DNA from: Lachnospiraceae bacterium
GTDB lineage: Bacteria; Bacillota; Clostridia; Lachnospirales; Lachnospiraceae
Reading direction: 5' to 3'
Assembly (NCBI GenBank): GCA_017558145.1
Contig: JAFYWF010000106.1
Location: forward strand, 1 to 42,261
Length of the DNA: 42,261 bases
The notes below the pieces were generated by a model that was not told the origin of the DNA, ran no database searches, and worked only from the letters and a program-made list of their open reading frames with translations. Of this stretch, positions 12,639 to 35,372 are shown one piece after another; the stretch's first letter is position 1, and each line of letters begins with the position of its first letter. A program made the position numbers and the translations under genes.

Positions 12639-12704
12639 CATTTTAATTAGAACTGATAATTTGAGAATATCTCTAATTAGACATTATATTTAATTATCAC
12701 AATA

Positions 12705-12740
12705 TAAAATTACATATTTACAGTCCGATATATTCAGGCT
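12705..12740 (-). promoter_or_regulatory. RiPP-type operator-promoter, copy a (orphan, decayed)
   Basis: On the minus strand AGCCTGAATATATCGGACT (12740-12722) is followed after 9 bases by TAATTTTA (12712-12705), then TATT and GTGATAATTA. This is the arrangement of the other RiPP promoters, with one half-site mismatch and one -7 mismatch. No gene follows on that strand: the convergent GH16 gene ends at 12583. It is probably a leftover from a lost unit. The rest of the 12584-12912 gap holds only the GH16 terminator. Confidence 0.65.
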
Positions 12741-12912
12741 TGATTATCCGAGATTTAATATTTGACATTTATTTACATTATGACACGATTTATCAAAAAC
12801 AGGAATAATGATTAGGTGTTGATCTAAGCCAATCATTATTCCTGTTTGAAATAAATTCTGAGGTAGGTTCAAAGAACTGATAAACATCTTTAAATCTCCT
12901 TAATATTAAAGG

Positions 12913-13518
12913 TTAATTTATTCGTTGAATAATATCAGAGTTTTCTCGTTTTGTTTTGACTTTAAGATCTTTAGAATAGATAGAATATGATATATTAACC
13001 ATAATTCCCCTCAAATCATTGGTGCCATATGTGCCTGATTTTACACATCCATATCGATTAACAAGGTTATTGTAATTAGCACCTTTTAAGATGTCTGAAA
13101 CTAACACATTTAGAGACAGACGGTTCTTCAAAAATGAACCGGCAAGACCGATACTCCAATTATTGGCAGGTTTCTGGCTCATCAATAGGCGAGTTTTATA
13201 TTCCTGGTAACTGAATGATGTAAATATACCAAAATTTGGACTGATTTTATAACTGATATTCAGATTACCATTAAATGATATTTTATCAGCATTATAATAT
13301 TGGTTTAAATAACTATATTTTCCCGATGGGAATACAGCCTCTCCCTCTAAATGTAAGTTCAACTTCGAGAAAGTATTAGTACAACCTATGTTTACACGAA
13401 AATCCTGTTGCGATTTTAGATTAACTGCATTTGTCACTATTATATTACTTTCTGATGAAATTGGGTACTCAATAGTTACGATGGGATCCTTCTCATAGTT
13501 GTATTTATCAAAACACAT
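12913..13518 (-). pseudogene. C-terminal fragment of an outer-membrane beta-barrel gene
   Basis: A 201-residue open frame matching only the last roughly 200 residues of the two full barrels in this window. It begins with YNYEKDPIV, which aligns with YNHRENPIM near residue 570 of the barrel at 17605-19908. It has alternating barrel strands and ends with a charged tail of the same style. No signal peptide, CarboxypepD_reg-like domain or plug is present. Upstream lies an intact RiPP-type promoter (13602-13637) rather than the rest of the gene, so a deletion joined a promoter to a barrel 3' end. An in-frame ATG exists, so a fragment could still be translated, but it would not be exported. Confidence 0.75.
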
Positions 13519-13601
13519 TATTTATAAGTTTTTTAAATTGTTTGAAATGAATAAACTTCATATCACAACAATTGTTAAACATATGGCTAATTATCACGTT
13601 A

Positions 13602-13637
13602 CAAACGTACTGCTATTCAATCCGACCATTTAGGACT
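13602..13637 (-). promoter_or_regulatory. RiPP-type operator-promoter, copy b
   Basis: On the minus strand AGTCCTAAATGGTCGGATT (13637-13619), 9 bases, then TACGTTTG (13609-13602), an exact TAnnTTTG. TAAC and GTGATAATTA follow, as in copies a and f. It now drives only the truncated barrel fragment. Confidence 0.8.
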
Positions 13638-13710
13638 ACTCATTTAATTTTTAAACAGCTTCTAATTATCTATGGTCAACTCGCAAAATAGGTAAATATC
13701 TAACGGATAA

Positions 13711-13742
13711 TTTGTGATTGAAAAAAGTTTTTTGTTATTTTG
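13711..13742 (+). promoter_or_regulatory. Promoter of the second AAA-ATPase/PDDEXK gene
   Basis: TTTG (13711-13714), 20 bases, TTATTTTG (13735-13742). The block from GGATAATTTGTG through GTTATTTTG is almost the same as before the first copy (1730-1767). Confidence 0.7.
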
Positions 13743-13774
13743 TTGGTCAATAAAGAATATAAGCGAAATAAGTC

Positions 13775-15367
13775 ATGAAGTACCCTATTGGAATACAAAG
13801 TTTTGACCGAATTATCGATGAAGGTTATGTTTATGTAGATAAAACTGCACTAATCCATAAGCTCGTAACCGAAGGAAGCATCTATTTCCTTAGTCGCCCA
13901 CGTCGCTTTGGGAAAAGTCTGTTGGTCTCTACCCTCAAAAATTATTTTCTGGGAAAAAAGGAATTGTTCAAGGGGCTTGCCATTGATGCTTTGGAGAAAG
14001 ACTGGCTGGAGTATCCGGTATTTCATGTCGACTTTAACGGAAACGACTTTACCCGCCCCGAAACATTGGTACAAAAGATTGAAAGTGCTGTAGCCACATG
14101 GGAAACGGCATACGGGAAAGACCCGTTAATGACAACATTGGGCGACAGGTTTACTTATGTATTGGCACAAGTTCATAAAAAAACAGGGAAACGTGTCGTT
14201 GTGCTGATTGACGAATACGACAAGCCTATTTTAGATGTGCTTGATACCGGACTTTCTTCAATAATAGCCGGAGAAAAACGCTTGTTGGAAGATCAACATC
14301 GTGAAATCCTAAAAGGTTTCTATTCAACTTTCAAGGCAGCAGACGAGCATCTGAAATTCGTGCTTCTTACAGGTGTAACCAAGTTCTCGCAAGTGAGTGT
14401 GTTCAGCGGTTTTAACCAACCGGCAGACATCAGTATGGATCCCCGCTACGAAGCGCTTTGCGGTATCACCAGTGAGGAACTTTACCATTACTTTGACAAA
14501 CCAATACAGACATTGGCTGTTAAGTTCGGATTCACAATCGAAGAAATGAAGAATTTCTTAAAACAAAAGTATGACGGTTATCATTTTGGTGAAAATTTGA
14601 TTGATATCTACAATCCATTCAGCTTGTTGAATGCTTTTGCTTCGCAACGAATAGACGACTATTGGTTTCGTAGTGGAACACCCACTTATCTGGTACGACT
14701 GCTTAAACACAATAAGGAAAATCTGAATGAATTGACAGGAAAGTATTATGATCCAAGCCAGTTTGTCGATTACAAGGCAGATGTAGAAATGCCGCTTCCT
14801 ATGATATACCAAAGCGGGTATCTCACAATTAAGGGATATAATATGAAACAGAATACTTTTTTGCTCGATTTCCCGAATAACGAAGTGAAAAAAGGATTTG
14901 TTACCATTGTAGCCAATGACTATTTAGGTACAAAAACAGATACCGGTAGTTGGGCACGCGATGTGGTCAATGCTTTGGAAGCCGGAGATACGGAAAAGTT
15001 CCGCAAATTGCTCACATCATTTTTAGCAGACATTCCTTATTCCATGCGTCGTAAAGAAGATGAACGGGAAAAGGAACGCTATTTCCATTACACTTTCTAT
15101 CTGCTTATGCGTATGATAAGTTGCTACACGGTTTATACCGAAAAGGAACAAAGTGAAGGACGAGTGGATTGCATTGTGGCAACTCCCGATTACATCTATA
15201 TTTTCGAGTTTAAACTGGACGGTACAGCCGATGAAGCTTTACAGCAGATAGAGGAAAAAGGCTATGCCCGTTCTTATGAAACAGATAAACGTAAACTATT
15301 CAAGATTGGTGTTAGCTTCTCTTCTAAAACAGGAACTGTGAATGACTGGAAAACAGTTGACCAATAA
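13775..15367 (+). CDS. AAA-ATPase-like / PD-(D/E)XK nuclease protein (copy 2)
   Basis: A 530-residue paralogue of the protein at 1798-3384, highly similar along its whole length. It keeps the Walker A variant RPRRFGKS, Walker B VVLIDEYDKP and the nuclease motif GRVDCI...YIFEFKLDG. Because the promoter block is shared too, the gene seems to have spread together with its promoter. Here it sits on the plus strand between the minus-strand maturase gene (15705-17168) and the truncated barrel gene, and so interrupts a RiPP unit. No transposase or terminal repeats are seen. Function is not established. Confidence 0.85.
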   Translation: MKYPIGIQSFDRIIDEGYVYVDKTALIHKLVTEGSIYFLSRPRRFGKSLLVSTLKNYFLGKKELFKGLAIDALEKDWLEYPVFHVDFNGNDFTRPETLVQKIESAVATWETAYGKDPLMTTLGDRFTYVLAQVHKKTGKRVVVLIDEYDKPILDVLDTGLSSIIAGEKRLLEDQHREILKGFYSTFKAADEHLKFVLLTGVTKFSQVSVFSGFNQPADISMDPRYEALCGITSEELYHYFDKPIQTLAVKFGFTIEEMKNFLKQKYDGYHFGENLIDIYNPFSLLNAFASQRIDDYWFRSGTPTYLVRLLKHNKENLNELTGKYYDPSQFVDYKADVEMPLPMIYQSGYLTIKGYNMKQNTFLLDFPNNEVKKGFVTIVANDYLGTKTDTGSWARDVVNALEAGDTEKFRKLLTSFLADIPYSMRRKEDEREKERYFHYTFYLLMRMISCYTVYTEKEQSEGRVDCIVATPDYIYIFEFKLDGTADEALQQIEEKGYARSYETDKRKLFKIGVSFSSKTGTVNDWKTVDQ

Positions 15368-15704
15368 AACAGTAAAGTTTGGGTACATTATCCGAACTTT
15401 GCATATACAAGGAATATTGTAATAGAAGCGACAGTGATATTTATATTTGAACGATAAATTATCTGATCTCCAACTTTCAGCTATTCGATAAAAAGTATTA
15501 TAAAATATGATAATTCTTTTTATCGAGCGGCTGAAATATAAGAGGGATGTAATAAAAATTACAATGTCAATCGAATTAATTTAAAGTTTTACTCTATCTA
15601 TAGAACGAAATAACAATTCTATTCTTCTGCTTTGCACAGTACTTCAATATTGCTACAGTGTTACTATTGGGGGATAATCTCACTACTATTAATGAGTGTA
15701 TACA
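15368..15704. other. Intergenic region with a long imperfect hairpin (15475-15536)
   Basis: A 337-base non-coding gap between convergent genes. The main structure is an inverted repeat, TTTCAGC..CGATAAAAAG (15475-15494) against CTTTTTATCG..GCTGAAA (15516-15536), which could end transcription from either side. Nothing else is visible. Confidence 0.55.
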
Positions 15705-17168
15705 TTATAAAATGAGATTGGTATCAGTAGCTTTAGGACATCTGGGATCCGGATATTCAAATTTACCTTCACCATATATTTTAGAAATATCTACATAACA
15801 AATTTTTTTGGCTATTTTATTCTTGCAAATATCATATACTTTACAATCTATACATGGAGTTGAATTGTCGGTAATTAAAGACTGATGTTTAGAATACAAC
15901 ATTAAGGCTTTCTCAGAGTTCCAAATATTTTCTATATTTTGATCATGAACGTCACCTAAAACATAATCGCGATTGTCATACAACATTTCACATATAGTAC
16001 ATTTCCCTGATGACAATATAGACATAGAGTAGCTATTAGCATAGCAAGTCTGATTATATTTTATAAAATCATTTTCTGATTTATACTTGCTCATGGAGTA
16101 TCCGGATTTGCCTATTTTATTATACAAGATAGGAAAATCCGTTTTTATATTTTGAGTATAATTAAAAATTAAACTCAGTCTTTCATTACTAACCATATAC
16201 TTATTATAATCCTTTTGATGTTCTGAATAAAAGGCAGGGGTTAATACCCATTTTTCTATACAAGTAAAACGACTAAGGTATTGATATAATTCCTGAATCT
16301 CTTCTTTTGTCGAATTTAAGTTTGTTAAAACACTACGTATTGAAACCTTAACACCAAATTTCTCACATAATTTAAACATTACATCAACTTTTTCAAAGTA
16401 TAACGAAGATACTCCGAGTAGTTTATGGAGTGTTTCGGTGTTAACTGAATCAAGAGAAAATTGTATGGAACCTACACCTAACCCAACAAGAATTTCAAAG
16501 TCATTAACCGATAAAGGTGTCTTTGTTGATATAAATGGAGAGTATTTTTTCTCCACTGCTTTTCTTAAAATATCAGGCCATCCTTTATGAACGAAAATAT
16601 CACCTCCTGTAAGAATTAGGTTTATGACACCTAAAGTATGAGCTTCATCAATTAAAGATATAATTTTTTGTGTATTCAATTCGTTTTTTTCAATTCTTTT
16701 GGCGTAACAATATATACAATTGGTTGTACATTGGGTTGTTACCATCAAATTCATATTTATGGGAGTCAATGGTCTGTGTGGCTCGAATGAATCCATCGGT
16801 AGCACTCCTTTTGTTGTCTTGAATACTCGATTGTCTGGAGTATCTGCATAAAGCAATAACCTTTTAGGCAAAATTACCTCCTGACCTGATACATCCAGTT
16901 TTTTAGCCGAATCATTTTCTATTAACTTTTCTATAAAGATCCGTAATTTATCCGTTCCTATGGATAATTCTTCAGAGATGGATTTTAATGATTCTTCATA
17001 TACTTTTTTCCCAATGTTAGTTAATATAAAACCTAAAAAGGGAGGGATTATTTCAACAGAAGCTGTTACAAAATCATTTTTTTGATCAATAACTTCAGAC
17101 CTTCTTATAATATATGAACAATTAGGTTCATTCCTAATCTCATACTGTGGATTTAATACAATATACAT
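15705..17168 (-). CDS. Radical SAM/SPASM RiPP maturase 1
   Basis: A 487-residue maturase. Its N-terminal 120 residues open with MYIVLNPQYEIRNE, which resembles the openings of the other two island maturases and may form a peptide-recognition domain. The cluster motif is CTTNCIYC (C147, C151, C154), followed by LTGGDIFVHKGW and IQFSLDSVN. The SPASM-like end has a Cys pair around KCTICEMLYD, then CIDCKVYDIC and the shared ending YPDPRCPKA. It belongs with the radical SAM maturases of GG-leader peptides in Bacteroidales. The precursor gene lies 60 bases upstream on the same strand, and a hairpin (17185-17208) separates them. Confidence 0.9.
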   Translation of the reverse strand: MYIVLNPQYEIRNEPNCSYIIRRSEVIDQKNDFVTASVEIIPPFLGFILTNIGKKVYEESLKSISEELSIGTDKLRIFIEKLIENDSAKKLDVSGQEVILPKRLLLYADTPDNRVFKTTKGVLPMDSFEPHRPLTPINMNLMVTTQCTTNCIYCYAKRIEKNELNTQKIISLIDEAHTLGVINLILTGGDIFVHKGWPDILRKAVEKKYSPFISTKTPLSVNDFEILVGLGVGSIQFSLDSVNTETLHKLLGVSSLYFEKVDVMFKLCEKFGVKVSIRSVLTNLNSTKEEIQELYQYLSRFTCIEKWVLTPAFYSEHQKDYNKYMVSNERLSLIFNYTQNIKTDFPILYNKIGKSGYSMSKYKSENDFIKYNQTCYANSYSMSILSSGKCTICEMLYDNRDYVLGDVHDQNIENIWNSEKALMLYSKHQSLITDNSTPCIDCKVYDICKNKIAKKICYVDISKIYGEGKFEYPDPRCPKATDTNLIL

Positions 17169-17184
17169 ACGCTTTCATAATTTA

Positions 17185-17208
17185 TCTCCATCCCAGTTGG
17201 GATGGAGA
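17185..17208 (-). terminator. Strong hairpin between precursor 1 and maturase 1
   Basis: TCTCCATCCCA (17185-17195) and its complement (17198-17208) form an 11-bp perfect stem with almost no loop. There is no T tract, so it may stabilise the precursor mRNA 3' end or act as a processing site rather than a full terminator. Confidence 0.5.
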
Positions 17209-17227
17209 ATTTAAGAGTGTAAAATAA

Positions 17228-17386
17228 TTAAACCAACTTAGTTGGGTCGTCTTCTGGAACAGGTGGTACCTCAATTATTACCGTTTCACCAGCACCACCA
17301 TTTTCACAGATACAAGTTCCTGCTGAACCTCCATTAACATTCTCAAGTTCTGATGTCAATAGGTTTTCTACAACTTTTTTGTTCAT
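17228..17386 (-). CDS. RiPP precursor peptide 1 (GG leader)
   Basis: A 52-residue peptide. The leader MNKKVVENLLTSELENVNGG ends in a double glycine (19-20) preceded by hydrophobic/acidic LENVN, the classical C39-peptidase cleavage site. The 32-residue core starts SAGTCICENGGAGET (C25, C27) and continues with a Pro- and acid-rich tail (VPPVPEDDPTK). It resembles the GG-Bacteroidales natural-product precursor type. Promoter c (17478-17513) and the maturase gene directly downstream make this a self-contained unit. Cleavage and export must come from the C39 exporter at 31995 or one outside the window. Confidence 0.88.
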   Translation of the reverse strand: MNKKVVENLLTSELENVNGGSAGTCICENGGAGETVIIEVPPVPEDDPTKLV

Positions 17387-17477
17387 AATAATAAAATTTT
17401 AAATTTACCTACTCTATTAGCTTTTCGGTTTCCGCTGAAAGTAATAACACGATATAAATTATATCCTCACTTTAATA

Positions 17478-17513
17478 CAAAATTACAGCCTGACAATCCG
17501 AAATATACGGACT
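17478..17513 (-). promoter_or_regulatory. RiPP-type operator-promoter, copy c (precursor 1)
   Basis: On the minus strand AGTCCGTATATTTCGGATT (17513-17495), 9 bases, then TAATTTTG (17485-17478), an exact -7 box. There is no -33 TTTG; the operator occupies its place, as expected for activator-dependent promoters. The precursor start codon is about 92 bases downstream. Confidence 0.82.
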
Positions 17514-17604
17514 CGCAATTTTTATTTTATGCTGGTTCTCAAAATGTCTAATCCAATAATAGTATTGATTATAGAAGCTATTAATTCAAATAAGAGCATT
17601 TTTA

Positions 17605-19908
17605 TCATATTATTCCACTATCAAAATCTTTATTGTTTATTCGTTTGCTCTCACTTTTGTACTTTCTTCCCAAAGAGAGGTTCCAAGAAAGAGTTGCCCA
17701 AATCATACGCGCCGTATCATCTATATTGTACTGATAGGTGTTTCCTGCATATTTATTTAAGAAATCATTATTACGCTTATATTGACCTGAGAAAGGATTT
17801 AGCCACATCAAACCAAGATTAATTCTCTTTATACGATATTGCCCACTAAAGTATAATAATTTTTCACCGGTATTTAACGTCTCCCCGAAAAAGCTATCAC
17901 TCTGCTGATGATAGGAAGCGGTAAAAACAAAGTTCTTATAGAATAATGAAGAGTTTAATGAAAAGCCAAGACTATTATGTCTGTGGTAGTAATCAACGCC
18001 TCTACTCCATTGCATATCATTGGTTATACTCCCACTCAACTGTAAGATATTCCATAACAGTCCTATACGAACATTCATTCCTACACCCAAATATTGATAT
18101 CTATCATGATTAGCAAAGCTATGGATGAATTTATCGTTCTCTCGATAGACATGTGTCATGATCGGATTTTCACGATGATTATATATTCCAAAAAGACCAA
18201 TGTTAACTTTTTCTTTCTGGTAATTTAAACGGAAATTTAAACGATAATAATCGTATGGTTTCAAGCTTGGATTACCTCTTTTGATTTGAAGTGAATCTAT
18301 CAACTGATCAGCTGAACTAAGTTGAGACAACGACGGTGTCATTGTACTAAGACTTCCTGTCAATGAAGCAGAAATTTGTTCAGTGAAAGTATAATTTAAA
18401 TTAAACTGTGGATTTATAGACCAAATATCATAATCATCTTTGTCTTTTTGCTTGAACCAAGTACGGTTGGTACCCACACCAAGACGATAATTCAATTTAC
18501 CTATTCTACCTTTATATTGGAGGTAAGCATATGTATTGGCTTGATTCATCTGTGTATTATATTTTAATGTGCCACTATAAACATTATCAGTATAACTTTG
18601 AGTATGTTTAATACCAATTGTTAACCGTGTTCCGTTATTGAACCCTTTTTCATAGATTCCTTCGGTTATAAGTGAAAATTTCTCACCATTAACTGCCGAA
18701 TAATAGTTAACGATTGTTTCCTTATTTTGAAATTCTTCGTATTCATTCCGATTAGACGTATTAATATATGTTCCAACTGCATTGAAAGCCAAAAATTGAT
18801 TGTTCTTCATCTTTTTCTGATAATAAATATCCAAATAAGGAGTTGTGCTCCGATTGTGTGACCAATTCCTACGATTGGTCATAGAGTTTGAAAATTCTTC
18901 AGTTAAAAGATTTCCTTCTTCTAAATAGTTAGGCACATTGTGGTTCTCAAAACCGACAATAATATTAAGCATATAATCATTGTCATTTTGAAAATTATAG
19001 GTGATTGCACCCCGATGATGAATTCCTTTCTGTCCATGAGGAACAGTCGTTACCGAACGATGGTATGTCCTTCCATCTTCAAATGCAAACACTTCATTTC
19101 GTTTTGACCACATTTTTTCAAAAATAAGATGCTCTGTATTATAAAAGAAACCAAATTCAGATTTCCCAAAATTAAGTTTTCCATTAATGTTGTGACGGCC
19201 AAAAAGCGATTTAACACTTTGTTGACCGTTATAGCCCACTGAACCACCTACATCAAACCGGCGCACCACATAGTTGATAACTACTGAAATATTTCCATAG
19301 CGGATACCGGGATCTTCTTGTAATTCCACCCGGACAATTTCAGAAGGTTGAAGGGCACTCACTTCATCTTGGGAGGCTTTTCGTCCATTTATACATAGTT
19401 GCACACCTCCTCCGTCATTAGTATTTATAGTATTACCTATCGGATTGACATGAATTCTTGGCAACATCAGATTTCTCAACAAATCTATACCATTAGCTGA
19501 TGCATTTACTTGCTTTTGATTAGGATATACCATTATTTTATCCGCAGTTAAGCTCATATTCGTGGCAGTTACTGTCACTTCACTCAATTGTTGAGAATCT
19601 TCCTCCATTAACAATGTCCCTAAATTAACCGAATGTTTGAAACCATGCAGTTCGATATACAATGTTTTATATCCCATACAAGAAATAATCAATCGATAGT
19701 CTCCTTCCGATACTTTTGGAAAATGTAAAATCCCTTTTCCATCAGATATTTGCCCTGCAACAAAAGTAGAATCTGATTTTTCCAAAACGACATTAGCATA
19801 TGTAAGAGCTTTTTGATGCTCATCAACCAATTTGCCCTTTATTGATTGTGCCTTTGCAAATACTGATACCATCAGTATACTAAATAAAACTAATACATTT
19901 CTTTTCAT
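17605..19908 (-). CDS. Outer-membrane beta-barrel protein with CarboxypepD_reg-like domain (barrel 1)
   Basis: A 767-residue outer-membrane protein. Signal peptide about 1-20 (ending AKAQ), CarboxypepD_reg-like Ig domain about 22-105 (GKLVDEHQKALTYANVVLEK, SEGDYRLIISCMGYKT), a plug-like region about 110-215 with LLRNLMLPRIHVNPIGN and VQLCINGRKAS, then an OMP_b-brl_3 barrel (PF14905) to the end. Members resemble TonB-dependent receptors, but I see no clear TonB box. It lies directly upstream of precursor 1 on the same strand and is closely related to the barrel at 23750. It could export, import or resist the modified peptide; sequence alone does not decide. Promoter d lies about 620 bases upstream, with an IS4 remnant between. 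Confidence 0.88.
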   Translation of the reverse strand: MKRNVLVLFSILMVSVFAKAQSIKGKLVDEHQKALTYANVVLEKSDSTFVAGQISDGKGILHFPKVSEGDYRLIISCMGYKTLYIELHGFKHSVNLGTLLMEEDSQQLSEVTVTATNMSLTADKIMVYPNQKQVNASANGIDLLRNLMLPRIHVNPIGNTINTNDGGGVQLCINGRKASQDEVSALQPSEIVRVELQEDPGIRYGNISVVINYVVRRFDVGGSVGYNGQQSVKSLFGRHNINGKLNFGKSEFGFFYNTEHLIFEKMWSKRNEVFAFEDGRTYHRSVTTVPHGQKGIHHRGAITYNFQNDNDYMLNIIVGFENHNVPNYLEEGNLLTEEFSNSMTNRRNWSHNRSTTPYLDIYYQKKMKNNQFLAFNAVGTYINTSNRNEYEEFQNKETIVNYYSAVNGEKFSLITEGIYEKGFNNGTRLTIGIKHTQSYTDNVYSGTLKYNTQMNQANTYAYLQYKGRIGKLNYRLGVGTNRTWFKQKDKDDYDIWSINPQFNLNYTFTEQISASLTGSLSTMTPSLSQLSSADQLIDSLQIKRGNPSLKPYDYYRLNFRLNYQKEKVNIGLFGIYNHRENPIMTHVYRENDKFIHSFANHDRYQYLGVGMNVRIGLLWNILQLSGSITNDMQWSRGVDYYHRHNSLGFSLNSSLFYKNFVFTASYHQQSDSFFGETLNTGEKLLYFSGQYRIKRINLGLMWLNPFSGQYKRNNDFLNKYAGNTYQYNIDDTARMIWATLSWNLSLGRKYKSESKRINNKDFDSGII

Positions 19909-20055
19909 ATGAATCTTAATTTAATAAATTTAATACTTCTATTCCAAAAGCAGGTTAATCATTCTTTTAAGCAGTTGAATTATAATTAGCTAAGTAGGTT
20001 CTTGAAATGAGGCAAACTTGAATAGTAACTTTGTAGGAATTATTGTTTGACTGCT

Positions 20056-20492
20056 ATGTTTCAAGATAGATACGTTTTTGTTCAACTCACAACTTTCCTG
20101 AATAGGATTCAGTTCAACAACTAGATTCGCAAGTATGACGGCAATCGTTATGTAAAGCAATTCACTTTTGGAAATCAGATGCTTGCAATGATGTTTAGCC
20201 AACTGAGTCACCGAGAGAGTTTGCGTAACTTGATTGTTGCTTTTGAAGCACACCATGCTAAAAGTACAACAGAAAATGACGTTCGCATACAAATCAGTGT
20301 GGCTATTATCACTTATCCTTGTAGTTATCATCCAACTGATATACAACTGAAACGCTCAACTTATGAAGTCTTGCAGATTCTAAGCATCTCTCATTGATGA
20401 ACAAAACTCATTTGCGAGACCTATTTGATAAGACTAATTTCAACGATGTGAAAGAACTTGATTATCCTTATTTTGAAGGACTATTTGATTAA
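20056..20492 (+). pseudogene. IS4-family transposase remnant
   Basis: Plus-strand remains of a transposase with a DUF4372-type N terminus: RYVFVQLTTFLNRIQFNN, an in-frame TAG at 20122-20124, then RKYDGNRYVKQFTFGNQMLA and FSQLSHRESLRNLIVAFEAH. The whole catalytic middle is missing, and the frame jumps near 20270 to the C-terminal part (IQISVAIITY, YEVLQILSIS). After a stop, a shifted frame continues THLRDLFDKTNFNDVKELDY to a final stop at 20490-20492. It is non-functional. It lies between barrel gene 1 and promoter d and probably disturbed their link. Confidence 0.75.
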
Positions 20493-20531
20493 TTATACTC
20501 GCCTAATTTTTATTGGGCTTTAATTACATTG

Positions 20532-20567
20532 CAAAATAAAATGGTAGCAATCCGATATATTCGGACT
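20532..20567 (-). promoter_or_regulatory. RiPP-type operator-promoter, copy d (towards barrel 1)
   Basis: On the minus strand AGTCCGAATATATCGGATT (20567-20549), 9 bases, TTATTTTG (20539-20532; one mismatch to TAnnTTTG). It points at barrel gene 1 through the IS4 remnant. It is divergent from copy e, 95 bases away. Confidence 0.78.
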
Positions 20568-20662
20568 GTCTCGTTTTTTATATTAGATTTACATTTTTTT
20601 TGTGATTAGTATTGAATTTAACATATAATTGTTGCGCGACAAAAAGATAATATTTGGTATGT

Positions 20663-20698
20663 AATCCGATAAATCTGGACTACATACATTTAAATTTG
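20663..20698 (+). promoter_or_regulatory. RiPP-type operator-promoter, copy e (plus strand)
   Basis: AATCCGATAAATCTGGACT (20663-20681), 9 bases, TAAATTTG (20691-20698), an exact -7 box. It is the only copy pointing right. Its original target seems to be missing; only a 28-codon frame (20736-20822) and the XRE cassette follow. Confidence 0.72.
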
Positions 20699-20735
20699 CA
20701 TCAATTAATTAGAAATCTTGACCATATACACCTAT

Positions 20736-20822
20736 ATGGATTCATCTAAAATTCATCATAGCATAGAATTTATGTATTATATAACCAATAGAAAATTACC
20801 TGGCTTTAACTTTCAAGCTTAA
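20736..20822 (+). other. Short open frame behind promoter e, doubtful
   Basis: Twenty-eight codons opening MDSSKIHHSIEF and ending LPGFNFQA, 38 bases after the -7 box of promoter e. It has no GG motif, no Cys and no recognised family. It may be the truncated start of a lost gene or chance. The rest of the 20493-20937 gap holds promoters d and e and the palindrome at 20876-20891. Confidence 0.25.
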
Positions 20823-20875
20823 CAGGTATTTTTCAATATAATCGCGTGCACCTGACGAAAAGATTGATGCACACC

Positions 20876-20891
20876 ATGCAAATATTTGCAT
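20876..20891. promoter_or_regulatory. Palindromic operator candidate before the XRE gene
   Basis: ATGCAAATATTTGCAT is a perfect 16-bp palindrome, 46 bases before the XRE start codon. Further TGCA-containing half-sites stand around it (GATGCACACC, CTCATGCA, TTTGCAGG). This is a likely autoregulation site of the XRE repressor. Confidence 0.55.
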
Positions 20892-20937
20892 CTCATGCAA
20901 TACAATAATTTGCAGGTGCTATCTAACTTTACATTGT

Positions 20938-21252
20938 ATGAAGAAAATAGGTGCAAAACTGAAAAAGATCAGAGAATTGAAAGGTTACTCACAGGAATAT
21001 GTTGCTGAATGTCTGCATGTTTCGTCATCAACCATTTCCAGAATGGAAACAAATTTCGAAGCAGTTAAATTTGGACAAATAGTAAGCTATTGTAGTATTT
21101 TAGACATAACTATTGAAGATTTGTTTGCACAGGATGCAAAAATAAAAGATGTTCCAATTAGGTTGTGCCTAAATGTAGAAACAAAAGACATACACTGCTT
21201 ATTAGAAATTCATGATGCCCTATCTGAAATCATCAAAAAGTGGAATTTATAA
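20938..21252 (+). CDS. XRE-family transcriptional regulator
   Basis: A 104-residue protein with an HTH_3 domain over about residues 5-62: LKKIRELKGYSQEYVAECLH, then the recognition helix SSSTISRMETN. The C-terminal 40 residues are helical and may mediate dimerisation. It is the first gene of a three-gene cassette (XRE, HTH, primase-helicase) on the plus strand. Its frame overlaps the upstream-most ATG of the next gene (21240), suggesting coupling. Similar regulators control small mobile elements in Bacteroidales. Confidence 0.85.
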   Translation: MKKIGAKLKKIRELKGYSQEYVAECLHVSSSTISRMETNFEAVKFGQIVSYCSILDITIEDLFAQDAKIKDVPIRLCLNVETKDIHCLLEIHDALSEIIKKWNL

Positions 21253-21263
21253 ATGATTTAGTT

Positions 21264-21632
21264 ATGGAAGTGATTACCATGGAAAGTGCAGTTTTCCTCA
21301 GTTTGAAAGAACAGCTTAACAGAATTGAAAGTTTTATTGAAAGAGCATCTGAAGTTTATCAGGAAGTTGATGACAATTTAGAGATGAGTACCAAAGAAGT
21401 CATGGAAACTTTGACAATTTCAGAATCCACTCTATACAGATGGAGAAAGAAGAATTTGATTCGTTATCGTTACTTATCTTCTGGTGATGTGCGTTATATG
21501 TACAATTCTCTGTTTTTGGCTATAAAATGTTCACATATCCGCATCTCAGCCATGCCAAAAGAAGAGGCTATGCGAAGGATGAATGAATATAAAGATAATA
21601 TTATTCTAAAAAGTTATGTAAGTAAGAAATAA
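21264..21632 (+). CDS. Helix-turn-helix (excisionase/MerR-like) protein of a mobile cassette
   Basis: A 122-residue protein from the ATG at 21264 (MEVITMESAVF), the usual opening in this family; 21240 and 21279 are alternative starts. A coiled N-terminal segment is followed by a winged HTH: MSTKEVMETLTISESTLYRW then RKKNLIRYRYLSSGDVRYMY, the HTH_17 layout of excisionase-like DNA-binding proteins carried by Bacteroides mobilizable elements. The primase-helicase gene begins 3 bases after its stop. No integrase is present in the window to pair with it. Confidence 0.75.
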   Translation: MEVITMESAVFLSLKEQLNRIESFIERASEVYQEVDDNLEMSTKEVMETLTISESTLYRWRKKNLIRYRYLSSGDVRYMYNSLFLAIKCSHIRISAMPKEEAMRRMNEYKDNIILKSYVSKK

Positions 21633-21635
21633 ATT

Positions 21636-23666
21636 ATGATAAATAAGGAAGATATATTAGAAAGGACCAATAGAGGTCTTGACGTATTCAAGCATTATTT
21701 GGGTTTCTCATTCAAACCGGGTAAAAATTTTAGAAATCCATTATATAATGATAAAAATGCATCTTGCAACATTTATTTTGACAAGCGTTCTCGCTGTTTC
21801 AAGATGAAGGATTTCGGAGATGAAAGTTATTCGGGAGATTGCTTTTGGTTTGTTGCGACAATCAAAGGCTGGAGTCTGAAAGATGATTTTGCTGCTGTTA
21901 TAGATTTGATTGTAATGGATTTGAGCCTTACGGTATCAGATGACTGTCGTAAAAGCCCAGCGTCCAACATTAATGAGGTTGATAAAAACGAAGTTGATGT
22001 TGTATCATTCAACAAGTCAAGTTATAAGATTGAAACAAAACCATTTTCAATAACCGAATTGACCTATTGGTTACAATATGGAATAAAGGAGGTTACTCTG
22101 AAAAAATTCCATGTGGCTTCAGTAAAATCCTATGAAAGCATCAACCGGAACAATGAGAAATATACGATTCAGTCAAGTGACATAGAACCGATATTTGCCT
22201 ATTGTGGAAACGGATATGTCAAACTATACAGGCCATTCAATCGTAAAACTCGTTTCTTGTATGGCGGAGAAATATCCGATACCTACTGCTTTGGGTTGGA
22301 ACAACTGCCGAACAAAGGAGACCTTGTTTTCATTACCGGTGGAGAGAAGGATGTGATGTCCCTCCATGCAAAAGGATTTCATGCCATCTGTTTCAATAGT
22401 GAGACCGCCTCCATTCCTACCTCCATCATTGAAATGTTGGAACGTAAATTCAAGCATATTATAATTTTATACGATACCGATGAAACCGGGAAACGGGAAT
22501 CGTTGCGGCAATGCAATATATTGTCTGAATACAATGTGTTCCGTATCGAACTTCCTTTATCTGGTGACAAGAAGCAAAAGGACATTTCCGATTATTTCGC
22601 TTTAGGGAATACAGTCACTGACTTTCGGAACATTATCAACCTCTCATTGGAAAAGCTCTATGCACAAACCTTGATGTTGCTCAAATCCTGTGAGATGGAT
22701 TATGACAATCCTCCCCAAATCTCAAAGACTGTTGTTTCCGTCAATGAAGTTCCGTTAGGAACCTATGACAACCTGTTGTGTGTGACGGGAGGAGAAGGCT
22801 CCGGTAAAAGTAACTTTGTATCAGCCATCATATCCGGGACTTTGGTTGAAAAAGAATCTCCCAATGTTGATACTCTCGGTTTGGATATATCCCCTAACTA
22901 TCACCATAAGTCCATACTCCACTATGATACAGAACAATCCGAGTACCAGTTATATAAGAATTTAAGCAAAACTCTGAGACGGAGCGGTCTTGACAAAATA
23001 CCTCCGACTTATCACACGTTCTATTTGGCAGCCATGTCGCGTAAGGAACGCCTACGAATTATCCGGGACAGTATGGATTTATATTATCATAAGCACGGTG
23101 GCATACATTTAGTTGTCATTGACGGTATTGCCGATTTAATCCGTTCTGCGAATGATGAGACGGAAAGTGTAGCTATCGTGGATGAACTGTACAGATTGGC
23201 GGGAATTTACAAGACCTGCATCATCTGTGTGCTTCATTTTGTACCTAATGGAATAAAACTTCGCGGGCATATCGGTTCTGAATTACAACGTAAAGCTGCC
23301 GCTATCATATCTATTGAAAAGGATGAAAATCCCATACTATCGGTTGTAAAGGCTATCAAAGTCAGAGACGGAAGTCCTTTGGATGTCCCGTTATTGCTAT
23401 TCACATGGGACAAGACTAAAGAGATGCACATATACGCCGGTGAAAAATCCGTTGAAGACAAGGAAAAACGTAAAAAGCAGGATTTGATAAATATTGCAAA
23501 GGAAATTTTCAGAGATAAGAATAAATTCAGCTACAGTGAATTGGTCGATTTGCTGATGGCGACTATGGATATAAAAGAACGGACAGCTAAGAATTATATT
23601 AAATATATGAAGGAGTATAAAATCATCAAGCAAGATTATTCATATTCTTACTTGTTAAACATTTAG
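21636..23666 (+). CDS. Primase-helicase of a mobile element (Toprim + RecA-like ATPase)
   Basis: A 676-residue replication protein. The N terminus (about 1-90) looks like a primase-type substrate-binding region without zinc cysteines (FRNPLYNDKNASCNIYF). A Toprim domain follows: VFITGGEKDVMSLHAKGF, then IILYDTDETGKRES. A RecA-like motor begins with Walker A VTGGEGSGKSNF, with LVVIDGIADLI as Walker B. The last 60 residues are a wing-like helical tail. Such proteins copy mobilizable elements such as the NBU type. It forms one operon with the XRE and HTH genes. The cassette lacks integrase, relaxase and visible ends, so it is probably a remnant or moves in trans. Confidence 0.82.
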   Translation: MINKEDILERTNRGLDVFKHYLGFSFKPGKNFRNPLYNDKNASCNIYFDKRSRCFKMKDFGDESYSGDCFWFVATIKGWSLKDDFAAVIDLIVMDLSLTVSDDCRKSPASNINEVDKNEVDVVSFNKSSYKIETKPFSITELTYWLQYGIKEVTLKKFHVASVKSYESINRNNEKYTIQSSDIEPIFAYCGNGYVKLYRPFNRKTRFLYGGEISDTYCFGLEQLPNKGDLVFITGGEKDVMSLHAKGFHAICFNSETASIPTSIIEMLERKFKHIIILYDTDETGKRESLRQCNILSEYNVFRIELPLSGDKKQKDISDYFALGNTVTDFRNIINLSLEKLYAQTLMLLKSCEMDYDNPPQISKTVVSVNEVPLGTYDNLLCVTGGEGSGKSNFVSAIISGTLVEKESPNVDTLGLDISPNYHHKSILHYDTEQSEYQLYKNLSKTLRRSGLDKIPPTYHTFYLAAMSRKERLRIIRDSMDLYYHKHGGIHLVVIDGIADLIRSANDETESVAIVDELYRLAGIYKTCIICVLHFVPNGIKLRGHIGSELQRKAAAIISIEKDENPILSVVKAIKVRDGSPLDVPLLLFTWDKTKEMHIYAGEKSVEDKEKRKKQDLINIAKEIFRDKNKFSYSELVDLLMATMDIKERTAKNYIKYMKEYKIIKQDYSYSYLLNI

Positions 23667-23680
23667 AATTAACCAAACAT

Positions 23681-23732
23681 CCTTCCTCAGAAAAGACATC
23701 TATCGATAGTATTTATGCCTTTTTGAGGAAGG
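23681..23732. terminator. Bidirectional terminator between the primase-helicase and barrel 2
   Basis: CCTTCCTCA (23681-23689) pairs with TGAGGAAGG (23724-23732) between convergent genes. An inner run of T (plus strand) and A gives T tracts in both directions. Confidence 0.6.
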
Positions 23733-23749
23733 TTATTCACTTGAATTTT

Positions 23750-26059
23750 TTACATTGCTCCATTGTCCAAGTCAACATTATTCATCCGTTTGTTTTGGTT
23801 TTTATAATTACGACCGAAAGTGACATTCCACGAAAGCGTTGCCCAAATGGCGCAAGCCGTATCGTCTATGTTGTAACGGTACTTATTTCCAGCATATTGG
23901 TTTAAGTAGTTTTCATCACGTTTGTACTCTCTTGAGAACGGATTAATAAGCATCAAGCCGAAATTGACTTTTTTAATCCGGTATTGGGCACTAAAATAAT
24001 GCATTTCTTCACCTGTCATCAAGAGTTCACCAAAGAAATTGTCAGCATTTTTGTGATAAAGAGCAGACAAGGTCAAGTTCTTGTACATAAAAGCGGCTTG
24101 AATTTCTCCACCGAAGCTGTTCATGCGATGATAGAAATCTACTCCATGGCTCCAATAGTAATTGTTGTTGATGCTTCCGCTCAGTTGCAGCATATCCCAA
24201 AGCATACCTATACGAGCCGTTAGTCCCACAGTCAGTTTCTGGAACTTTTCGTGATTGGCATAACTATGGATAAACTTGTCGTTTTCACGATAGATATGCT
24301 CCATAATAGCATTATCCCAGTGATTGTAATTGGCATACAGACCTACATTTACCTTTCCTTTTTTGTAATTCAGACGAAAACTGGAATAATAGTTGTCGTA
24401 TGGTCTCAAATCAGGATTTCCCCGACTGATTTGTAAAGAGTCGGTAAGCTGATCAACCGCGCTGAGTTGGGAAAGTGAGGGACTTATGGTGCGGATTCGT
24501 CCCACGAATGAAATACTCCACCGATTGTTAAACCGATAGCTAAGATTTACTTGTGGATTGATAGACCATGTCTCATAATCTTCTTCTCCTGCTTGTTTGA
24601 ACCATGAACGGGTGACACCCATGCCAAGTATATAGTTAAGACCACCCTTTTTCCCCTTGTATTGGGCATAACCGTAGGTGTTTGCTTGACGCATCCGTGT
24701 GTTATACTGTAAGGTACCGATGTAGTGATTGTCCGTATATCCTTGGCTGTGTTTTACTCCAACGGTCATCCGCCCGCCATTATTGAACCCTTTCTCGTAA
24801 ATTCCTTCTCCGATAAAGGAATACTTCTCGCCTTTGACGGTAGAAGAATAATCAACAATGGATTCATTATTCTGGTATTCCTGATAGCAGCTTCGGTTAT
24901 AGGTGTTTATGTAGGTTCCTACCATATTGAATGCTAAAAACTGTTTGTTCTTCATATTTTTCTGAAAATAAACATCCATATAGGGAGTGGTGTTGCGGTT
25001 GTGTGACCAGTTCTTGCGCTCAGTCACCGAGTTTGAAAATTCTTCGGTCATGAGTTTTCCCTCTTCAATATTGTTGGGAGTATTGACATTTCTGAAACCG
25101 GCACTAATGTTCAACATATATTTGTCATCGTCCTGCAAATTGTAGGTGACACTTCCGTTATGGTGTATCTTTTTTGCACCATGAGGATTGGTTGTCACAG
25201 AACGGTGATAAACACTTCCATCCTCAAAAGTAAAGGTCTCGTTTCTTTCCGACCACATATCTTCAAATATCAGATGCTCGGTATTATAATAGAAGCCAAT
25301 TTCTGACTTACCGAAATTCACTTTACCATTGATGTTATGCCGTCCGAAAAGAGACTTGATGCTTTGCTGGCCATTATATCCAAAAGAGCCGCCCATGTCA
25401 TAACGGCGAACTACATAATTAATCACTACCGACACATCATCATAACGCACACTTGAATCTTCCAATACCTCAATACGTATGACTTCGGAAGGTTGTAAAG
25501 CGGTTACTTCATTTTGACTGACTTTTCGTCCATTAATGCAAAGTTGTACGCTTCCACCATCATCTGTACCAATGGTATTGCCTATCGGATTGACGTATAT
25601 TCGTGGAATCATCAGGTTGCGTAAAAGATCCGTTCCGTTTGCTGAAGCGTTCACTTGCTTCTGATTTGGGAAAACCAATTTCCTATCAGCTGTACCAGTC
25701 ATGTTGTCGGCTGTCACGGTCACTTCTCCCAATTGTTGCGAAGCATCTTCCAAAATTAAGACACCTAAGTTCGTGGTACGGCTAAAGCCCTGTAAATCGA
25801 CATAGAGCGTTTGATAACCCATGCTGGAAATTATCAATCGATAGTCACCTGGGGATACCTTTGAAAAGCGAAAATCACCTTTTTCATTGGATATTTGTCC
25901 GTTCACGAAAGTTGAATCAATTTGTTGCAACACTATATTAGCATATGCTAGCGGGTCATTCTTTCCATCTATTAATCTACCGCTAATCGTTTGTCCCTTT
26001 AATGACAGGCTTACCATCATAAAAACGTAAGATATAAGAATAAAATTTCTTTTTATCAT
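23750..26059 (-). CDS. Outer-membrane beta-barrel protein with CarboxypepD_reg-like domain (barrel 2)
   Basis: A 769-residue paralogue of barrel 1, similar over the full length. Start MIKRNFILISYVFMMVSLSL with signal cleavage near residue 23 (LKGQ); an ATG 12 bases upstream is possible. Ig-like domain (GRLIDGKNDPLAYANIVLQQ, GDYRLIISSMGYQT), plug-like part (LLRNLMIPRIYVNPIGN, VQLCINGRKVS) and a barrel with the conserved strand 'SINPQVNLSYRF' and a 'WATLSWNVTFGRNYK' ending. It is last in the precursor 2-maturase 2-barrel unit, 60 bases after the maturase stop, so a link to peptide 2 is direct. Role (export pore, receptor or self-protection) is unknown. Confidence 0.88.
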   Translation of the reverse strand: MIKRNFILISYVFMMVSLSLKGQTISGRLIDGKNDPLAYANIVLQQIDSTFVNGQISNEKGDFRFSKVSPGDYRLIISSMGYQTLYVDLQGFSRTTNLGVLILEDASQQLGEVTVTADNMTGTADRKLVFPNQKQVNASANGTDLLRNLMIPRIYVNPIGNTIGTDDGGSVQLCINGRKVSQNEVTALQPSEVIRIEVLEDSSVRYDDVSVVINYVVRRYDMGGSFGYNGQQSIKSLFGRHNINGKVNFGKSEIGFYYNTEHLIFEDMWSERNETFTFEDGSVYHRSVTTNPHGAKKIHHNGSVTYNLQDDDKYMLNISAGFRNVNTPNNIEEGKLMTEEFSNSVTERKNWSHNRNTTPYMDVYFQKNMKNKQFLAFNMVGTYINTYNRSCYQEYQNNESIVDYSSTVKGEKYSFIGEGIYEKGFNNGGRMTVGVKHSQGYTDNHYIGTLQYNTRMRQANTYGYAQYKGKKGGLNYILGMGVTRSWFKQAGEEDYETWSINPQVNLSYRFNNRWSISFVGRIRTISPSLSQLSAVDQLTDSLQISRGNPDLRPYDNYYSSFRLNYKKGKVNVGLYANYNHWDNAIMEHIYRENDKFIHSYANHEKFQKLTVGLTARIGMLWDMLQLSGSINNNYYWSHGVDFYHRMNSFGGEIQAAFMYKNLTLSALYHKNADNFFGELLMTGEEMHYFSAQYRIKKVNFGLMLINPFSREYKRDENYLNQYAGNKYRYNIDDTACAIWATLSWNVTFGRNYKNQNKRMNNVDLDNGAM

Positions 26060-26119
26060 AGATATATTCAATTATGTTATACAATAAATTTATGTATTTT
26101 GCATCCATTCAATACCATC

Positions 26120-27592
26120 TCATTTATATAGTCCATTATTAATCATGGGAGATTTAGGACAACGAGGATCCGGCATATAAATATTTTCTTTTCCATATCC
26201 TAACATAATATATTTCCAACATACCCCTCTTACGCTATGGCACTCATCAAATTCGTTACATTTTCCACATACTGTATTTTTGTAATTTGATTGGTCAAAT
26301 AAATGTGAGACATCGCCATTTTTCCAAACATCACTGAATTTCTGATTTCGTATATTTCCTATTACTAATTCTTTTTGTGACATTGTTCCTTCACAAAATG
26401 TAACATCTCCGTTAGGCATAATATAGGCTTGATGTAGATTTCCCGAGCACATAGATCGTTTAGAGAAATAATTACATTTTTCCGTATAAGAGTTCATAAT
26501 GTATTTTTTAGGTAATCCATGAGTTACGCGTATCGGAAAGTTAAGTTGTTTCTTGATTTGGCTTATCCGATTTTCTATAATCTCAATAGATTCTTCTGAT
26601 GGCATATATTCCGCAGATTTATACAATGAAAATCCGGCAGGTATTATCGAAACATTGTCAATATTGTCATATTGTGATAAAAAAGCAATCAATCGTTCCA
26701 CTTCCTCAATACAACAATTGTATTTTGTTATAACAGAGTTTATTTTCACCTTTATATCGGATTGCTTCAACTGGTCAAAAGTATTTTTCATATCGGATAA
26801 ATACTTTTCGCCCTTCACTTTAAGCAATGTCTCAATGATGGATGGATTAACACTATCCAATGATATTTGGATATTCTCAATACCTATTTCTTTCATTCTT
26901 TGTATTATTTGAAGTGAAATAGGAATCTTTGTAGAAATTGTTGGTGTCAATCCTAATTCTTTAAGTCTAAGTAAAATAGTGTCCCAATCATTATCTAAAA
27001 AGAACTCGCCTCCCATTATTGTAAAATCCAAAATGGGATGTTGGGCAATCTCATCCAACAATTCCATTATTTTAGACAAGGGAAGTTGTCTTTGTTTTCG
27101 TGTCCTACAATCTGCATAGCAATAGATACAATCCGTATAGCAGGATGTATTTATCATATATGTAATAAATAGAGGAAAATTCAACCTCTTTGTTTTAAAA
27201 TCTAGTGTGTCAAAAGAGAAATCAACCATAGAATTTCCATATTGATAATTTTCCGGTTTCTCTTTTAATAAAAGGTTAATTGGGAAAAACGATTCGTTTT
27301 CTGCATAACCAACAGAAAAAGGCTTAAGATTCCCTGTTATCTTTTCAATAAATTTCAAAGTTGACAATCCAAATAATTTTCCCAAGCAACTTTTTTTTAC
27401 AACATCTTCAATCGTATTGTTTCCATTAAAAAGAGATAAGAACTCCGCATGGTACGGATGAATAAAAGAATGAAAAGATACAGAATATCTATCTTCTGAG
27501 ACTTTAAAATCACGTGCCCATAACAAACTTCTTGTTTCGTCATGGCGGATAAAATAATTAGGATTTAGATATAATACATTTGACAATTCCAT
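26120..27592 (-). CDS. Radical SAM/SPASM RiPP maturase 2
   Basis: A 490-residue homologue of the maturases at 15705 and 35602. The N-terminal region (MELSNVLYLNPNYFIRHDET...) carries the same LNPxYxIRHD opening. Cluster motif CYTDCIYC (C151, C155, C158), then IMGGEFFLDNDW and IQISLDSVN. The C-terminal domain has NYFSKRSMCSGN, GDVTFCEGTM, CGKCNEFDECHSVRGVCW and the shared ending YMPDPRCPKSP. The precursor 2 gene is 178 bases upstream across a hairpin (27658-27705). Barrel 2 follows 60 bases downstream. Confidence 0.9.
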   Translation of the reverse strand: MELSNVLYLNPNYFIRHDETRSLLWARDFKVSEDRYSVSFHSFIHPYHAEFLSLFNGNNTIEDVVKKSCLGKLFGLSTLKFIEKITGNLKPFSVGYAENESFFPINLLLKEKPENYQYGNSMVDFSFDTLDFKTKRLNFPLFITYMINTSCYTDCIYCYADCRTRKQRQLPLSKIMELLDEIAQHPILDFTIMGGEFFLDNDWDTILLRLKELGLTPTISTKIPISLQIIQRMKEIGIENIQISLDSVNPSIIETLLKVKGEKYLSDMKNTFDQLKQSDIKVKINSVITKYNCCIEEVERLIAFLSQYDNIDNVSIIPAGFSLYKSAEYMPSEESIEIIENRISQIKKQLNFPIRVTHGLPKKYIMNSYTEKCNYFSKRSMCSGNLHQAYIMPNGDVTFCEGTMSQKELVIGNIRNQKFSDVWKNGDVSHLFDQSNYKNTVCGKCNEFDECHSVRGVCWKYIMLGYGKENIYMPDPRCPKSPMINNGLYK

Positions 27593-27657
27593 AATATCAA
27601 AATTATATAACGTATAACCAAAAAGTAAATTTGTTTGAACGCGCAGTTTTTTTATAT

Positions 27658-27705
27658 GGAAGAACCTCTCTTTTTCCGTACTTCAGATAAGGAGATGGTT
27701 CTTCC
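27658..27705 (-). terminator. Hairpin between precursor 2 and maturase 2
   Basis: GGAAGAACC (27658-27666) pairs with GGTTCTTCC (27697-27705), extended by TCTC/GAGA. No T tract on the minus strand. It could protect the precursor mRNA or lower read-through into the maturase gene. Confidence 0.5.
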
Positions 27706-27770
27706 TTAATTTAAAGAGTCAACGACAATAAATTATAGTCCACTCTCATGTCAAATAAAAGAAGGAAACA

Positions 27771-27959
27771 TTAGTTTTCCGGGGTTTCAGGCTGTTCCAA
27801 ATCAACAGCCTTCAGATCGCTTAACAGACAACCTGGTACACAACCCAAAGCGCATGCACCACCTTCAACATTTTCCATCTCTTCTAATCTAAGAAATCCT
27901 TCTTCTGAAAGGTTTTTCTTAATAACATCCTGAACATCTTGTTTGAGATTCTTTTTCAT
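27771..27959 (-). CDS. RiPP precursor peptide 2 (GG leader, CX3CX3C core)
   Basis: A 62-residue peptide. The leader (1-34) opens MKKNLKQDVQDVIKKNLSEE and ends LEEMENVEGG, a double-glycine cleavage site. The 28-residue core begins ACALGCVPGC, with C36, C40 and C44 at even CX3CX3C spacing, and ends in an acidic tail (DLEQPETPEN). It is first in a unit with maturase 2 and barrel 2 and is driven by promoter f. The GG leader and small, Cys-rich core mark it as a substrate of the adjacent maturase and of a C39 exporter. Confidence 0.92.
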   Translation of the reverse strand: MKKNLKQDVQDVIKKNLSEEGFLRLEEMENVEGGACALGCVPGCLLSDLKAVDLEQPETPEN

Positions 27960-28001
27960 AAGAAATGTTTTTTAGTTATACTTTAATTAATTATCACATT
28001 G

Positions 28002-28037
28002 CAAATGTAGAATCGTAGAGTCCGAGAATTATGGACT
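28002..28037 (-). promoter_or_regulatory. RiPP-type operator-promoter, copy f (precursor 2)
   Basis: On the minus strand AGTCCATAATTCTCGGACT (28037-28019, perfect half-sites), 9 bases, TACATTTG (28009-28002, exact -7 box), CAAT, GTGATAATTA. No -33 box. The precursor start codon is about 43 bases downstream of the -7 box. Confidence 0.85.
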
Positions 28038-34196: not shown

Positions 34197-34204
34197 TTGA
34201 ACTT

Positions 34205-35347: not shown

Positions 35348-35372
35348 TTAGTAACATTAAAAAGACGTGTTT

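Follow-up and report, generated by a model that had tools for sequence, protein, structure and literature searches.

The window analyzed here, the contig C66 of 42,261 nucleotides, comes from a genome assembled to 2.88 Mb in 120 contigs and 88% complete, which we call the own genome. It encodes three radical S-adenosylmethionine (SAM)/SPASM enzymes, each preceded by a small peptide open reading frame (ORF; precursors 1, 2, and 3), along with two OMP_b-brl_3 barrels, an ATP-binding cassette (ABC) exporter with a C39 peptidase, and an HlyD-type adaptor, genes of the type found with ribosomally synthesized and post-translationally modified peptides (RiPPs). At six sites in it, named a to f, a palindromic 19-bp operator, AGTCC-N9-GGAYT or close to it, lies 9 bp upstream of a predicted promoter box, TAnnTTTG (the -7 box). 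This 36-bp operator-promoter arrangement is real, statistically strong, and locus specific.

A scan of the window found exact AGTCC-N9-GGAYT at five places (13619, 17495, 20549, 20663, and 28019), which give six rows because the site at 28019 matches on both strands; dinucleotide shuffles lead to an expectation of 0.09. An earlier sequence-only reading had counted six exact copies, and five of them are; the other, site a at 12722, has two mismatches to the 19-mer (left arm AGCCT). At that tolerance, the palindrome alone has 55 matches in the window against 43.5 expected, a number reached in 4 of 100 shuffles, and the palindrome of site a is by itself barely above chance. We recognize this site from its -7 box and from GTGATAATTA, which is common to a, b, and f and, as that reading had said, starts four bases past the -7 box. 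The claim that the window holds no other copy is correct for the operator together with its box. Five of the sites (a, b, c, d, and f) read along the minus strand in the direction of their promoters; e reads along the plus strand, which carries its -7 box and gives its operator as AATCC-N9-GGACT. Operators d and e (20549 to 20681), 114 bp apart, are divergent by their -7 boxes yet are direct repeats as sequences (84%); read in the same direction as d, operator e fits the consensus better, and it might also serve d as an upstream site.

The distance from operator to box is 9 bp at all six sites of the window and at both further copies described below. The nine bases in between are variable and the box follows as first reported, exact at b, c, e, and f and with one mismatch at a (TAATTTTA) and d (TTATTTTG). 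We scanned spacings of 0 to 29 in the window and in 300 dinucleotide-preserving shuffles, with the operator written as ARTCC-N9-GGAYT. Exact operator and exact box occurred together at four sites with spacing 9 and at none with any other spacing. With one mismatch allowed in the box, there were five sites at spacing 9 and at most one at any other, and the shuffles gave a mean of 0.0033 (maximum, 1) at spacing 9, the one distance that is enriched. With up to two mismatches allowed in the operator, eight matches had this spacing (mean of the shuffles, 1.15; maximum, 5); two of the eight (4689 and 34434) are outside the six sites and within other genes.

Pairwise comparison of sites c, d, e, and f gave mean identities of 0.85 in the operator ends and 0.79 in the box, versus 0.28 in the 9-bp spacer, 0.32 over 80 bases on the upstream side, and 0.34 in the more distant downstream part; the operator centers also differ between sites (identity, 0.45). 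Given the low identity of spacer and flanks, these four sites hardly resemble recent duplicates, and selection seems to have maintained their spacing.

Table 1. Operators, genes, and RNA element of the window, with positions, strand, and remarks
Feature	Positions	Strand	Remarks
Operator a (AGCCTGAATATATCGGACT)	12722..12740	-	2 mismatches; -7 box TAATTTTA 12705-12712; GTGATAATTA 12691-12700
Operator b (AGTCCTAAATGGTCGGATT)	13619..13637	-	-7 box TACGTTTG 13602-13609; GTGATAATTA 13588-13597
Operator c (AGTCCGTATATTTCGGATT)	17495..17513	-	-7 box TAATTTTG 17478-17485; faces precursor 1, maturase 1
Operator d (AGTCCGAATATATCGGATT)	20549..20567	-	-7 box TTATTTTG 20532-20539; faces barrel 1
Operator e (AATCCGATAAATCTGGACT)	20663..20681	+	-7 box TAAATTTG 20691-20698; box divergent from d
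Operator f (AGTCCATAATTCTCGGACT)	28019..28037	-	perfect 5-bp arms; -7 box TACATTTG 28002-28009; GTGATAATTA 27988-27997
Barrel fragment, 200 aa	12913..13518	-	like C-terminal part of OMP_b-brl_3; behind operator b
Radical SAM/SPASM maturase 1	15705..17168	-	
Precursor peptide 1, 52 aa	17228..17386	-	GG leader type; by inspection, no family match
DUF805b cis-regulatory RNA (RF02914)	17406..17438	-	41.7 bits (gathering 35.6); predicted leader of precursor 1
Outer-membrane barrel 1 (OMP_b-brl_3)	17605..19908	-	
Outer-membrane barrel 2 (OMP_b-brl_3)	23750..26071	-	
Radical SAM/SPASM maturase 2	26120..27592	-	
Precursor peptide 2, 62 aa	27771..27959	-	Bacteriocin_IIc match under cutoff
Candidate regulator (TPR-HTH protein)	28369..30243	+	tetratricopeptide repeats (TPR), long helix, C-terminal helix-turn-helix (HTH)-like domain
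C39-peptidase ABC exporter	31914..34196	+	start codon uncertain
HlyD-type adaptor	34193..35347	+	under curated cutoff
Putative precursor 3	35367..35621	+	no family match; no operator found
Radical SAM/SPASM maturase 3	35572..37116	+	no operator found

Elsewhere in the own genome, the bare 19-mer pattern occurs at six places (contigs C13, C30, C51, C60, C71, and C77); an exact box follows at 9 bp only on C30 and C71, and on both the 19-mer of operator b recurs identically. The 36-bp pattern has six exact matches in this genome, four on C66 and one each on C30 and C71. Relaxed to at most two mismatches, it gave 71 matches versus 60 for the control; the zero-mismatch rows are seven of the eight accepted sites and one match on C83 (left arm AATCT), which was taken as chance, uninspected, and site d has one mismatch to this relaxed pattern. 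All eight accepted operator-promoters lie on C66, C71, and C30, that is, on 3 of 120 contigs amounting to 67.4 kb or 2.3% of the assembly, and each of the three contigs holds RiPP-type genes or gene pieces. In 396 other genomes of the family, the 36-bp pattern gave five matches, one each in five genomes, and the reversed control pattern gave one; four of the five carry an AATCC left arm. All five look like chance, and nothing beyond such single matches points to conservation of the sites in these genomes. Viral, phage, and plasmid collections held neither the b 19-mer nor the b promoter; 11 viral contigs matching a 36-bp pattern were taken as chance, uninspected.

The copies on C71 and C30 are relatives of the b promoter, 98% identical to it over 153 bp and 86% over 119 bp, respectively, and since the three are so closely related, we count b once. 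The b cassette of about 150 bp (window, 13505 to 13657; L013, 10103 to 10255; L012, 10070 to 10188) was clearly copied between loci and now precedes a barrel fragment, a DUF4760-like gene, and a truncated exporter at its three loci. Besides its promoter copy, C71 carries a radical SAM/SPASM gene, a small peptide ORF, and genes for two other proteins: a large one like the barrel fragment (25% over 152 residues) and one that can be aligned with the candidate regulator of the window at 22% identity. We found no exporter there. Behind the C30 promoter lie, in order, the final 46 residues of a C39-type ABC exporter (67% identical to a Segatella one), the first part of an HlyD-like adaptor (40% identical), and (L012, 10635 to 11225) a lipoprotein-like ORF whose C-terminus is, by eye, glycine/alanine rich and bacteriocin-like and which matches nothing in Pfam or NCBIfam. 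Near the b-type promoters are tyrosine integrase genes that are 78% identical (L013, 10328 to 11539; L012, 513 to 1622 and 9870 to 9995). The C30 integrase is apparently split by inserted DNA, its tail end adjoining the promoter, and the C71 integrase, sought in 120 genomes, had a match in one.

One can envision from these neighbors a role for the palindromes in recombination, as core sites at which a tyrosine recombinase would move or invert promoters in the manner of Bacteroides phase variation. The C71 copy of b is directly behind an integrase gene and the C30 copy is behind the tail end of a similar one, the b-type promoters precede truncated genes in the window and on C30, and a weak inverted repeat (30 nt, 77% complementary, A+T rich) flanks the C71 promoter. 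However, recombining sites need matching centers, and those of the operators differ. No second inverted 19-mer was found beside any promoter and no inverted repeat in the b region of the window, the homology of b and C71 ends about 20 bp upstream of the site and thus outside it, and the fixed 9-bp spacing would be left unexplained. Recombination is unlikely to explain the whole set, and we give this account very little weight.

Behind the boxes, site c leads to precursor 1 and maturase 1, site f leads to precursor 2, maturase 2, and barrel 2, and the barrel fragment lies behind site b. At site d, about 620 bp separate the box from the start of barrel 1, with a DUF4372-type ORF in between. The DUF805b element ahead of precursor 1 has counterparts: such elements lie about 20 bases before RiPP precursor start codons in four clusters of three genomes (minus strand in the window; L013, 6431 to 6463, minus; L033, 2601 to 2633, plus; L039, 3237 to 3271, minus), with none at precursors 2 and 3 and none in L034. 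These elements suggest that the peptides are under a second control, exerted at the RNA level; a literature search found no paper on DUF805b or DUF805. Weak Rfam matches to MIR1523 (on a hairpin) and snoR35 were taken as chance.

The TPR-HTH gene, divergent from operon f, encodes a protein that has, by eye, a signal- or lipoprotein-like start and one membrane helix, and helices are predicted in its C-terminal part at residues 564 to 574, 579 to 586, and 590 to 608 (mean predicted local distance difference test [pLDDT] score of >80 per block). All 14 aligned relatives (45 to 62% identity), which were picked from 120 of 3299 matches listed in the protein collection, retain a C-terminal SVSKRKxRLKERI motif or a variant close to it. 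A stand-alone model of the HTH was poor (pLDDT, 51) and was left unused. Rap peptide receptors are among the TPR proteins that its TPR part resembles, the top structural matches being to eukaryotic LGN, and this likeness is compatible with peptide sensing. For two relatives of precursor 2, P0123 (90% identical) and P0124 (83%), the longest contigs measure 29,113 and 13,318 bases, respectively, and two relatives of the regulator (P0005 and P0052) have longest contigs of the same sizes; from these equal sizes, the two kinds of relatives appear to sit on shared contigs. By its position and this apparent contig sharing, the TPR-HTH protein is plausibly the best candidate for the binder of the operator. 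Against the BT3442 family (NF053779), it scores 125.5 bits, under the curated cutoff of 940 bits.

The regulator family (28369 to 30243, P0003 to P0005, P0008, and P0014) looks mosaic, with several relatives sharing near-identical first 75 residues while the TPR middle diverges; in P0014, the TPR part is 86% identical and the HTH is different. A perfect 18-bp palindrome, AGATAACAATTGTTATCT, at 28306 to 28323 overlaps the likely -7 box of the regulator gene, and AACAATTGTT recurs downstream of b-type promoters. The regulator had one match in 397 genomes of the family, none in 2 genomes of one genus, and one in 266 genomes of the order; the matches are the own genome, and absence weighs little here, with strict E-value limits and few candidates scored per genome in the sets of 397 and 266. 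Maturase 2 had a match in 2 of the 397 family genomes, and an alignment of maturases had matches in 3 of them and in 1 of 7 genomes of the genus. No relatives of the regulator or the maturase were found in viral, phage, or plasmid collections; 11 plasmids matched a regulator relative, ten of them listed at about 23 to 33% identity.

How might such sites work? With confidence a little above even, we think that the six sites are operators of one dimeric activator, for which the TPR-HTH protein is the candidate binder. The activator would bind the palindrome over the -33 region and help RNA polymerase to use the predicted promoters, each with its TAnnTTTG box exactly 9 bp downstream of the operator; in this way an outer-membrane barrel and two precursor/maturase units would probably be switched on together. 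If transcription starts about four bases past the box, the operator would cover about -40 to -22, with its center near -31. The constant spacing may well reflect contact with RNA polymerase, since such contact needs a fixed geometry and blocking does not, and it is this invariance that favors an activator over a simple repressor; E. coli PhoB offers a precedent. The candidate binder, as we imagine it, would use its C-terminal HTH to bind the operator and perhaps its TPR part to sense a peptide within the cell envelope.

A different argument for activation, made in the sequence-only reading, was the missing -33 box. TTTG or TTG near -33 is indeed absent at all six sites, but the argument fails for this genome and is withdrawn, because 20 of 25 other promoter-like boxes of the own genome also lack TTG at -33. 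These boxes came from 38 stretches of the own genome (171 kb, some overlapping), after 2 of 27 had been set aside as operator bearing; TTG at N17-22 was present at 5 of the 25 operator-free boxes, versus 3 and 2 of 25 in two control windows. According to one study, a -33 motif was not identified in Flavobacterium johnsoniae, and a motif likened to the B. fragilis promoter is present at 81% of primary starts in B. thetaiotaomicron (PMC7366714).

The same sites could instead be operators of a dimeric repressor, such as the TetR-type protein encoded at 37720 to 38205, that blocks RNA polymerase at the -33 region. Palindromes that overlap the core promoter are typical of repressors, the window does hold a TetR-N gene (E value, 4.1e-06), and most of the boxes inspected have no TTG at -33 anyway. 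Yet a blocker tolerates variable spacing, whereas exactly 9 bp is seen at all six sites. Moreover, no operator was detected at the TetR gene, and the site-like sequences there have one or two mismatches and are intragenic. We regard repression as unlikely, though it is an account to be taken seriously.

Several observations weigh against a single activator regulon run by the TPR-HTH protein. In the four bases past the box, c, d, e, and f share 58% identity, and short, weak alignments of the 289-bp surroundings pair a, b, c, d, and f (E values, 4e-04 to 0.06: c-d, 38 bp, 4e-04; a-c, 33 bp, 0.001; b-f, 22 bp, 0.005; the rest are weaker), of which c-d, a-c, and a-d span the operator itself. Site b and its C30 and C71 relatives are one lineage, leaving at most six independent sites. 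Should the whole set then be put down to chance or to inheritance from duplicated promoters? These weak flank similarities, the copying of b, the GTGATAATTA of a, b, and f, and the near-chance palindrome of site a all go in that direction. Sites c, d, e, and f are nevertheless at background identity in spacer and upstream, and the shuffle mean of 0.0033 and the yield of five single matches from 396 other genomes also count against this explanation, which is extremely improbable.

Other points on the same side concern the genes and the binder. Site a has no convincing gene before a convergent GH16 gene, and site e has no clear gene before an HTH/primase element at 20938 to 23666; the genes first named behind the sites do lie behind b, c, d, and f. 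We found no operator ahead of precursor 3, the exporter, the regulator gene, or the precursor of C71, and the homologous clusters of Hallella (L033), Segatella (L034), and G177 (L039) lack it as well. Pfam finds no HTH in the TPR-HTH protein of the window. A fifteenth fetched relative, P0014, was excluded from the alignment because its C-terminus differs; it has a GerE match, but its C-terminal domain is not the one of the window protein. The TetR-type gene, other nearby HTH genes, and an 80-aa HTH-like ORF (30834 to 31076, by eye) are alternative binders. It may also be that the operators serve an activator whose gene lies elsewhere in the genome: the operator is missing from the related Hallella and G177 clusters, and the own genome is 88% complete, with its regulators only partly surveyed. 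The divergent position of the TPR-HTH gene next to operon f and the contigs apparently shared by relatives of both argue otherwise, and we find an activator from elsewhere rather improbable.

In general, then, a shared operator of RiPP loci is backed by the fixed spacing, the little shared flank, and the restriction to RiPP-type contigs. Of the RiPP regulon switch proposed from the sequence, the common operator is well supported, and the activator is favored by the spacing. The arrangement is likely to be an activator regulon, probably a new and locus-specific one. A more ambitious version would have the membrane-spanning TPR-HTH protein sense an exported, radical SAM-modified peptide and directly activate promoters that carry a palindrome in place of -33, a one-protein peptide autoinduction circuit for Bacteroidales RiPPs; we consider this circuit speculative and, as a whole, doubtful. 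The 36-bp arrangement allows a direct reporter test and names a candidate regulator, and such work would show how these peptide genes could be turned on.

Bacteroidales RiPP clusters with a gene set similar to that of the window have been described, with radical SAM enzymes, a C39 exporter, an outer-membrane protein, and a TPR gene; that report names the TPR genes in two clusters as possible regulators, and its main text has the word "operator" nowhere and "promoter" once, in a reference (PMC10352776). Our search of the literature, which covered titles and the starts of abstracts and few subscription papers, found no described operator for any Bacteroidales RiPP cluster.

Among regulators, the candidate binder resembles LuxR/GerE-type and TPR-fused one-component regulators in having a predicted C-terminal helical HTH on a TPR sensor, and P0014 has its GerE match; it differs in that the C-terminus of P0014 is another domain and the window protein has no Pfam HTH match. 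With the Rap/RRNPP peptide receptors, it has in common the TPR domain, with similarity in sequence and fold, but the window protein carries its own HTH-like domain and, by eye, also a signal-like start and a membrane helix, and the LGN matches make this a likeness to TPR in general.

At the promoter, a comparison can be made with PhoB, a winged-helix response regulator that reads direct repeats and whose Pho box replaces the -35 element. The E. coli PhoB site has two 8-bp repeats and a 3-bp linker (19 bp in all) and is placed 10 bp before the -10 box (PMC1906773). Both systems place a site at a fixed distance before a core box (10 bp for PhoB and 9 bp here). The operator described here is an inverted repeat, with a spacing of 9 and another sigma factor, and is not a true Pho box. 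The sigma-ABfr promoters of Bacteroides have TAnnTTTG at -7 and TTTG at -33 (PMC7366714). All six sites have this -7 box within one mismatch; they differ in lacking TTG at the -33 spacing, as do most of the other boxes inspected in this genome, and in having the operator there. If an activator does replace the -33 element at these sites, they would represent an additional promoter architecture for this phylum.

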